Shown here piece by piece: positions 29,264 through 53,755 of a DNA stretch of 64,000 bases. The first letter of the stretch is position 1, and every line of letters begins with the position of its first letter. Under the pieces are notes generated by a model that did no database searches, had not been told where the DNA came from, and worked only from the letters and a program-made list of their open reading frames with translations. The stretch is from Leptospirales bacterium (GTDB lineage Bacteria > Spirochaetota > Leptospiria > Leptospirales > Leptospiraceae): positions 1 through 64,000 of the forward strand of contig JAAFIR010000003.1 of NCBI GenBank assembly GCA_013297885.1, in the 5' to 3' direction. The translations under genes were made by a program, and so were the position numbers.

Positions 29264-29394
29264 TTCGCGCGAATTTTTTTCAAAGCAGTGGTGGGTCTAG
29301 ACCCACTGTTGAAAAAAACCGGGCTATCCGCTACTTCTGAAACCTCGTGTTAAAACACGAGGCTATTCAGAAACGCTTCTATCCCTTTCGCAGA
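29264..29394 (+). repeat. Structured dispersed element, copy D
   Basis: This is a complete sense copy, 26 nt after the last gene of the act operon. The end-joining helix is GCGAA 29269-29273 with TTCGC 29387-29391. The first hairpin is TTTTTTTCAA/TTGAAAAAAA around CAGTGG...TAGACCCACTG. The joint is ACCGGGCTATCCGCTA. The second hairpin combines TTCTGAA/TTCAGAA with CCTCGTGTT/AACACGAGG. The exit is CGCTTCTATCCCTTTCGC. Confidence 0.83.
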
Positions 29395-29456
29395 GAAAGC
29401 CTTGTGTTAGAGAAAATTAGTTTGACTTACATAATTAAATCTTCCTCACTGAAAAA

Positions 29457-52855: not shown

Positions 52856-52998
52856 TTTGGGCGAATTTTTCCCTTCGCCAATTAGAAATGAAAAATTAAA
52901 AATATAGAATGAAGGGAAAAAACACGCTTTCAACTCTGGTCAATATTTTGTAACTACAAAATATTGACCCCGTTTCAATCGTTTTCGCTTTGTGTTGA
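52856..52998 (+). repeat. Structured dispersed element, copy G
   Basis: This is a complete sense copy after mgtE. The end helix is GCGAA 52861-52865 with TTCGC 52984-52988. The first hairpin is TTTTTCCCTTC/GAAGGGAAAAA around an AT-rich insert. The joint is ACACGCTTTC. The second hairpin is GGTCAATATTTTGT/ACAAAATATTGACC over AACT. The exit is CGTTTCAATCGTTTTCGC. The second hairpin shares its base, GGTCAAT, with copy A. Confidence 0.83.
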
Positions 52999-53051: not shown

Positions 53052-53339
53052 ATGAGTGAATTATGGTGTTCATGTTGGAATTGTAAAAATTATATTAAGG
53101 GGAATACTTGTATCGCCTTCGATGAAATTCCAATTGAAATTGCTGCAGGAATTCACGACCACCGAACTCCTTTTGATGGTGACAACAGAATTCTTTTTGA
53201 AGAAAAAGTAATACCCAGATTTAGAATCTCACTACGTTCGATTCTAAATCTGGGACTGATTTTATTAGCTTTGATAAAAATTTTACTTTTAAAAAAACAT
53301 CACATTATGTTAAAAGCCAGACAAAAAAGTTTTTTTTAG
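53052..53339 (+). CDS. Small cysteine-rich protein with an atypical C-terminus
   Basis: Residues 1-52 look like a real, conserved small protein: CSCWNCKNYIKGNTCIAFDE has a CxxC-type metal-site pattern, followed by IEIAAGIHDHRTPFDGDN and ILFEEK. After that the frame runs through a 15-bp hairpin (53214-53254) and low-complexity DNA to 53339. A one-base deletion in the AAAAA before GTAA would end the protein as FEEK. So the tail is probably an artefact of a frameshift or of hairpin insertion. AAGGAAAATTT precedes the ATG. Confidence 0.6.
   Translation: MSELWCSCWNCKNYIKGNTCIAFDEIPIEIAAGIHDHRTPFDGDNRILFEEKVIPRFRISLRSILNLGLILLALIKILLLKKHHIMLKARQKSFF
53214..53254 (+). repeat. 15-bp perfect hairpin inside or after a small gene
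   Basis: CCCAGATTTAGAATC (53214-53228) and its exact complement (53240-53254) flank an 11-nt loop, TCACTACGTTC. It has no T-run. It sits at the natural end of the 53052 protein. Confidence 0.75.
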
Positions 53340-53401
53340 AAAAACACAAATTCAAAAGGAAAATTTGTAAATTTTTCTAAAAAAAACTTTTTCGTCTGGC
53401 T
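53315..53401. repeat. 30-bp inverted repeat with one mismatch
   Basis: AGCCAGAC plus 22 bp of A/T-rich arm (53315-53344) pairs with 53372-53401 over a 27-nt loop; only one position fails. It is among the longest stems in the window. Neither arm matches the conserved frame of the dispersed elements, though the T/A-run style is alike. Confidence 0.75.
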
Positions 53402-53494
53402 CTGATTCTTTATTTGAGTAATAGAAGACCCCCAAGATTATAATTGGTAAAGAAATTTTTTAAATTTTTTTATACAGGAAACCAAAAAAAAATC

Positions 53495-53515
53495 AATGAT
53501 TTTTAAAAAATCATT
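53495..53515. repeat. Short AT-rich inverted repeat
   Basis: AATGATTTTT (53495-53504) and AAAAATCATT (53506-53515) are complementary. It lies 7 nt from the edge of element copy H, within the same hairpin-rich gap. Confidence 0.5.
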
Positions 53516-53521
53516 CCAATA

Positions 53522-53694
53522 CTATGCGAAAGTGATTGAAGTGGTATCAAAAATTTGCAAATGCAAATTTTTGATAAGAACGGAAAGCACGCTTTTTTTT
53601 ACCTAACCCAATTTTATTTGTATTGAATAAATTTTCTTTTTAGTCCCTTCCCTAACAAGGCTAAAGGGGGTTAGGTAAAAAAAATTCGCCCAAA
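53522..53694 (-). repeat. Structured dispersed element, copy H
   Basis: This is a complete copy on the minus strand. The end helix is GCGAA (rc of 53685-53689) with TTCGC (rc of 53526-53530). The first hairpin is TTTTACCTAACCC/GGGTTAGGTAAAA around a roughly 60-bp insert. The joint is GCGTGCTTTCCG. The second hairpin is TATCAAAAATTTGCA/TGCAAATTTTTGATA over TT. The exit is CTTCAATCACTTTCGCATAG. It is antisense to the genes on both sides. Confidence 0.83.
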
Positions 53695-53755
53695 TAATCT
53701 TCTAGATAAGTCTTTTTGTATTGGACAAAAGTGTAAAAACGAAAAATTTAAACTT

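Follow-up and report, generated by a model that had tools for sequence, protein, structure and literature searches.

Features of the region at 52.8–53.8 kb

The region forms part of a 64,000-nt stretch of DNA (hereafter the window) and contains a small gene on the forward strand (53052–53339), a 205-bp MITE-like repeat on the same strand (family 1; 53214–53418), and two complete copies of a second, folding repeat (family 2), namely copy G (52856–52988, forward strand) and copy H (53526–53694, reverse strand). The first-pass annotation had reported four distinct inverted repeats here, all of which exist: a hairpin at 53214–53254 with perfect 15-bp arms and an 11-nt loop; an inverted repeat at 53315–53401 with 30-bp arms (53315–53344/53372–53401) that are 97% complementary; a hairpin at 53495–53515 with 10-bp arms and a 1-nt loop; and the hairpin of copy H, with 15-bp arms (53545–53559/53562–53576). 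They are not four separate entities, as the first two belong to the single 205-bp repeat. The same annotation had correctly placed copy G some 220 bp upstream (the fitted element ends at 52988, 217 bp before 53205) and had noted the lack of a coding gene over 53340–53755, a stretch covered by no ORF of at least 60 aa.

The hairpins were compared with chance using dinucleotide shuffles. Perfect hairpins with arms of at least 9 bp numbered 28 in the window against 18.6 in the shuffles, and those with arms of at least 12 bp numbered 7 against 0.9. The 15-bp hairpins accordingly stand far above the chance expectation, whereas the 10-bp hairpin does not exceed it. DNA folding yielded z-scores of −5.0 for copy G, −5.6 for copy H, −6.5 and −9.1 for the hairpins at 53214 and 53315, respectively, −10.7 for the whole of 53212–53418, and −2.6 for 53490–53520. 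The hairpin at 53495–53515, which consists of A and T only and has no assigned strand, lies in single-copy sequence and has nothing special about it.

A search of the region against the whole genome and a comparison with relatives had been proposed with the annotation. In the former, G, H and the 205-bp repeat proved to be dispersed, and no match elsewhere in the genome was reported for 53424–53517; in the latter, relatives of both repeat families were found in other genomes. These relatives, together with the presence of both families on many contigs, make an assembly artefact at the hairpin cluster very unlikely. What was reported as a pile-up of hairpins is a small, mobile-looking element lodged between two copies of a folding repeat that is widespread.

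The native part of the small gene ends near 53208, and the remainder of its ORF is read from the inserted element. Removal of the element together with one TAATA leaves the frame intact and yields a protein of 62 aa. Three homologues (two paralogues in this genome and one in the congener G005) have about the same length, with ends within approximately 10 aa of that position. From this comparison, family 1 would have inserted into the last codons of the small gene, generating the TAATA direct repeat. The gene at 53052–53339 had no Pfam match, and no relatives of the downstream gene were found in the named genomes. Proteins encoded in the window match the NCBIfam models Lepto_7_Nterm and phas_rel_Lepto, both named for Leptospira, above their cut-offs, which makes a spirochaete related to Leptospira the likely source.

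The 205-bp repeat

The window copy is delimited by a left (53214–53228) and a right (53404–53418) terminal repeat and is flanked by a TAATA direct repeat (53209–53213 and 53419–53423), a putative target-site duplication. The two reported hairpins lie within it on the forward strand: in the first (53214–53254), an inverted copy of the left terminal repeat directly follows that repeat, and the second (53315–53401) is a long stem near the right end. In the latter, the window copy carries a change on both sides of the stem, with CCAGAC/GTCTGG replacing the commoner CCTGAC/GTCAGG.

Searches of the same genome returned 11 matches of at least 118 bp at E≤1e-34, the window copy included, plus one more divergent copy at C15:63911 and fragments. 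The commonest form starts with CCCAGATTTAGAATC and finishes with GATTCTATATTTGAG; its terminal inverted repeats, with CCCAGATTTAGAATC and CTCAAATATAGAATC as the commonest ends, are identical at 12 of 15 positions, compared with 11 of 15 in the window copy. Among the seven copies with both ends readable, the flanking 5-mers were identical in five, namely TAATA/TAATA in the window copy and L032 and TATTA/TATTA in L005, L012 and L041, and differed at one position in two (TATTA/TATTT in L004 and TAGTA/TATTA in L033), giving a 5-bp direct-repeat consensus of TAWTA. Two congeners (G005 and G006) contain elements with related ends, CCCAGATTTCTAATC, in which both arms of the left hairpin, whose stem is 15 bp long, have changed at two positions.

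An autonomous parent was sought by terminal-repeat pattern searches among the own-genome matches listed and in three congeners, and no end pair of transposon size was found; the opposed terminal-repeat pairs among these matches lay approximately 30–200 bp apart. Near-identical copies of the first hairpin also occur on their own, without the rest of the repeat, at L042 (G000:C10:15228–15264) and L045 (G000:C17:138342–138376), and sequence resembling the left end is located at L065 (G000:C2:3882–3897), immediately upstream of the ATG of an open reading frame.

Architecture of the folding repeat

Family-2 elements range from roughly 75 to 200 bp and are recognised by a covariance model, R1, from whose training alignment both G and H were absent. 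Copy G scored 118.6 bits (E=3.5e-19) and copy H 105.8 bits, and unsupervised DNA folding of each produced the same three-way junction. In copy G, the outer stem spans 52861–52865/52984–52988, stem1 spans 52866–52876/52911–52921, and stem2 is the hairpin 52938–52969, with 15-bp arms at 52938–52952/52955–52969. In copy H, stem1 is the ACCTAACCC..GGGTTAGGT repeat and stem2 the hairpin 53545–53576.

Alignment of the copies revealed three conserved blocks, TTTGGGCGAATTTTT (A), AAAACCGTGCTTTCCGCT (B) and CGCTTCAATCACTTTCGC (C), between which lie two hairpins whose letters differ from copy to copy. The junction consists of P1, the outer stem GCGAA/TTCGC, in which block A pairs with the end of C; P2, a hypervariable hairpin between A and B; and P3, in which B pairs with the start of C around conserved pyrimidine-pyrimidine mismatches and which is closed by the second hypervariable hairpin, stem2. 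The stem1 type ACCTAACCC..GGGTTAGGT is combined with any of three stem2 types (at L008, L019, L022, L026, L037, L051 and window 53526–53694), which means that the two hairpins reassort. At window 62280, a lone block A (TTTGGGCGAATTTT) is present, with blocks B and C not detected; it is perhaps a degraded copy.

Covariation and the nature of the folded molecule

Covariation was analysed in 52 elements of this genome, i.e. all those that passed the three-block rule in the loci examined, some of which had been chosen for their likeness to the window, making the set non-random. Among 1275 column pairs, the predicted pairs rank 1, 2 and 7–11 by mutual information, with ranks 3 to 6 taken by neighbours of the predicted-pair columns. 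Pair B7–C10, for instance, reads TA in 23 elements, GC in 15, AT in 7 and CG in 5. In the subset of 21 elements with a stem1 of 28–60 nt and a stem2 of 33–44 nt, 97.0% of the cells were paired, against 73.9% after shuffling and 43–60% when the arms were slid by 1–3 columns, and 24 of 34 pairs had changed on both sides. Covariation extends to every helix of the junction.

G.U pairs are tolerated in folded RNA, where one-sided changes are consequently common. We considered it unlikely, on balance, that family 2 is a small or cis-acting RNA family present in many copies, even if the conservation of the fold and of the internal-loop bases agrees with such a role. Against it, there is almost no wobble in this genome: in the 21 elements, 154 changes were both-sided and only 2 one-sided, and the hairpin arms of the 52 elements comprised 1435 Watson-Crick, 16 G.T and 27 A.C pairs. 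Seven tRNAs of the same genome had 137 Watson-Crick and 11 G.T pairs (Fisher p=1e-5 against the hairpin arms), and 13 tRNAs over all loci had 254 and 22, respectively; the comparison was confined to G.T because A.C pairs may go unreported by the tRNA finder. Covariation of family 2 here is therefore almost purely Watson-Crick, unlike that of tRNAs, and fits DNA rather than RNA.

The 88 elements read from other genomes (see below) provide one point in favour of RNA, as their stem2 contains 63 G.T against 17 A.C pairs. Of these G.T pairs, 48 fall at two fixed positions of one stem type, so this excess looks like a fixed feature, yet it lacks the G.T/A.C symmetry of the own-genome elements. P1 in these elements had 425 Watson-Crick pairs, one G.T and one A.C, under a placement that demanded at least 3 of 5 pairs.

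Strict Watson-Crick arms with freely drifting letters, as found in stem1 and stem2, would also be produced if template switching during replication (quasi-palindrome correction) kept the stems perfect neutrally, with recognition of the fold not needed. This is a rather improbable account, as the same arms keep their mismatches: columns B9.C8 and B12.C5 are paired in 0 of 52 elements and B17.C0 in 1 of 52. Moreover, P1 pairs strands that are far apart, on either side of two hairpins, and the dispersal of the element is left unexplained. The conserved mismatches argue against neutral palindrome repair, and the main reason for thinking that the fold itself is recognised is that such repair should erase B9.C8 and B12.C5, which never pair.

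Copy number, context and mobility

R1 returned at least 150 matches in this genome (150 of 150 scored candidates), compared with 7, 8 and 14 in three congeners and 0–3 in four other members of the family. Independently of the model, a block scan of a 459-kb sample (contig C17 and most of C51) yielded 30 elements, or 34 with looser rules, and 0 in shuffled sequence, which extrapolates to some 340 elements per genome. Numbers this high, and specific to the lineage, also speak against the RNA reading.

Context, defined by simple ORFs of at least 90 aa, could be assigned to 27 of the 30 elements, the other three having no neighbouring gene on one side. Twenty-five were intergenic (15 between tandem, 6 between convergent and 4 between divergent genes) and 2 lay inside ORFs. 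The A end faced the 3′ end of a gene in 17 of the 25, and in 10 of these 17 it was within 30 bp, an orientation that could mean a role in transcripts. That family 2 provides 3′-end structures for the preceding genes, as transcription terminators or mRNA stabilisers, is nonetheless decidedly unlikely: T's precede and A's follow stem1 on both strands, the reverse of an intrinsic terminator; for the C end, the count facing the 3′ end of a gene is 10 of 25, close to the 44% expected from base-weighted gap types; and four elements are situated between divergent genes and two within ORFs. No strand bias was seen on two contigs (9 forward and 7 reverse; 10 forward and 8 reverse).

We infer mobility of family 2 rather than observe it: close relatives supplied no empty site, no enzyme was found, and flanking matches of 3–5 bases occurred near the shuffled mean, with those of 6 bases numbering 3 against 0.48, too few for a duplication to be claimed. 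The copy number relative to the congeners is supportive of mobility, as is placement within genes in genome G176, where copies inside protein-coding ORFs are at odds with an RNA family.

In G176, duplicated ORFs, presumably of an RHS-like family, carry family-2-like elements in frame near their starts (L171–L173; G176:C1:2585000–2644999). Between paralogous copies of these ORFs, the stem1 and stem2 hairpins at the corresponding position differ, which gives the impression that stems have been swapped as modules. An integron attC array was considered for this genome and rejected, as the eight same-strand Flavo-1 matches within 57 kb lie near the starts of the duplicated ORF family and not in cassettes.

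The only Y1-transposase gene of the genome under study (L175; G000:C42:60000–67601) has palindromes of a third kind, CAGTGGGTC..GACCCACTG, on its flanks, and sequence resembling these makes up stem1 of the element at window 29264–29391. A Y1/RAYT mobiliser for family 2 was unsupported, with an element present at 1 of 8 Y1 loci of the genus in the stretches examined, approximately 650 bp upstream.

Relation to Flavo-1 and spread across genomes

The window sequence 7749–7860 matches the Rfam family RF01705 (Flavo-1), an entry for an sRNA gene, at 48.7 bits, above the gathering score of 42. Copy H scored 33.0 bits, below that value, as did matches at 101–183 and 29313–29399, and copy G had no RF01705 match even at E≤1; several other own-genome copies pass the gathering score. 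The entry and these scores constitute a further argument for an RNA. Flavo-1 originates from PMC2864571, according to an excerpt of that paper, and a partial text of a 2022 review (PMC9029176) lists it among the abundant sRNA families. Conversely, an excerpt of PMC9723704 describes the matches in F. psychrophilum as lying sense or antisense alike, with many untranscribed, which counts against an RNA.

A pattern scan of the named genomes retrieved at least 119 stretches, mostly from Bacteroidota and Spirochaetota, and 88 elements were read from 80 loci; these are uninformative on the GGG/CCC pair of P3, because the scan pattern fixes it. The strand complementary to the C end, which would close P1, was present upstream in 84 of the 87 other-genome elements with enough flank, and P1 together with an adjacent stem1 of at least 4 was found in 61 of 87, against 2.0% of 14472 trials with the strand of another element. 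The outer stem thus recurs in Bacteroidota and in other spirochaetes.

Flavo-1 itself exceeded the Rfam cut-off in three of eight loci checked, two from the pattern scan. RF01705 was detected in 16 of 198 genomes of the phylum and in 10 of the 11 genomes reached through scan loci. Copies numbered 22–58 in each of six Flavobacteriales genomes (Algibacter, Seonamhaeicola, Tamlana, Flavobacterium, Crocinitomix and Kaistella). Two spirochaete MAGs had 140 and 138 copies and a Clostridiales MAG had 36, compared with 1 in Defluviicoccus and 0 in Mucilaginibacter.

It seems that the folding repeat is the complete version of what has so far been catalogued as a small RNA, and this complete element was not found described in the open-access literature. 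As a tentative extension, Flavo-1 might not be an RNA but one arm of a high-copy three-way-junction DNA element of Bacteroidota and Spirochaetota that an enzyme recognises as a folded single strand by its shape and conserved mismatches, a new kind of structure-guided mobile site to be placed alongside attC and REP. Should Flavo-1 prove to be a structured DNA repeat, many loci of flavobacteria and spirochaetes now annotated as sRNAs would be misannotated, and there would be an enzyme to look for that reads folded single-stranded DNA. In screens for conserved structure, the near-absence of wobble pairs offers a simple and general test of folded DNA versus folded RNA.

Interpretation of the region

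In our preferred reading, to which we assign a probability of about 0.6 as a whole, two families of dispersed DNA repeats, both non-autonomous, are nested in the region, and family 2 is recognised as folded single-stranded DNA and is not a small RNA. An enzyme would recognise the folded single strand by its shape and conserved mismatch bases and would move or copy it without a target-site duplication; the hairpin tips would then be free to drift, provided that pairing of the arms is kept.

The first-pass annotation had attributed the cluster to a preferred landing site for palindromic DNA or to replication slippage. That palindromic DNA arrived here has been upheld in part: it seems to have landed in this region, given that copies of another repeat lie on both sides of the 205-bp repeat with its 5-bp direct repeat. 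The idea of a general hotspot was not borne out. When 13 complete or partial family-1 copies were compared with random intergenic positions, a family-2 element lay within 500 bp of 4, against 17.7% expected (p=0.19). Within 30 bp the figures were 3 of 13 against 3.5%, a fourth copy being located beside a partial element; the test itself used a background of 3.0%, giving p=0.006 at a cut-off chosen after seeing the data, so that the close neighbourhood of the two families is suggestive and post hoc. The spacing of 538 bp between G and H is not unique either, as another family-2 pair in the sample is 729 bp apart. Slippage is countered by the hairpins being not local products but copies of dispersed families, which keep their architecture and pairing while their letters change. 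Attraction of palindromic DNA to a hotspot, like slippage, is accordingly a highly improbable explanation of the cluster.

Comparison with known systems

Family 1 resembles MITEs in its terminal inverted repeats, short direct repeat and lack of a gene of its own, and departs from them at the left end, where an extra inverted copy of the terminal repeat forms a perfect hairpin. An origin from IS200/IS605 elements, which have subterminal hairpins and fixed TnpA cleavage sites, is made less likely by the terminal inverted repeats and the direct repeat of family 1. No MITE paper naming Leptospira was found in the open-access literature.

Among RNA families, the 76-position Flavo-1 model corresponds to the P3 arm with its hairpin. 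It is without P1 and P2, which complete the three-way junction of the larger family-2 element, and it is defined as an RNA, whereas the covariation of family 2 in this genome fits DNA.

REPs and REPINs are folded repeats, short and non-coding, that occur in high copy number and mostly between genes, traits that family 2 shares. They consist of one or two hairpins, as opposed to a three-way junction, and in REP/RAYT systems the element flanks the Y1 gene, whereas here other palindromes flank the single Y1 gene. An excerpt of PMC12306157, which treats REPs, does not describe the family-2 fold.

The attC sites of integrons act as a folded single strand with conserved ends, conserved unpaired bases and variable stem tips, and family 2 is, on paper, alike in all these respects. 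The two differ in their core: the attC R-box consensus RYYYAAC/GTTRRRY is absent from the 51-column block consensus of family 2.
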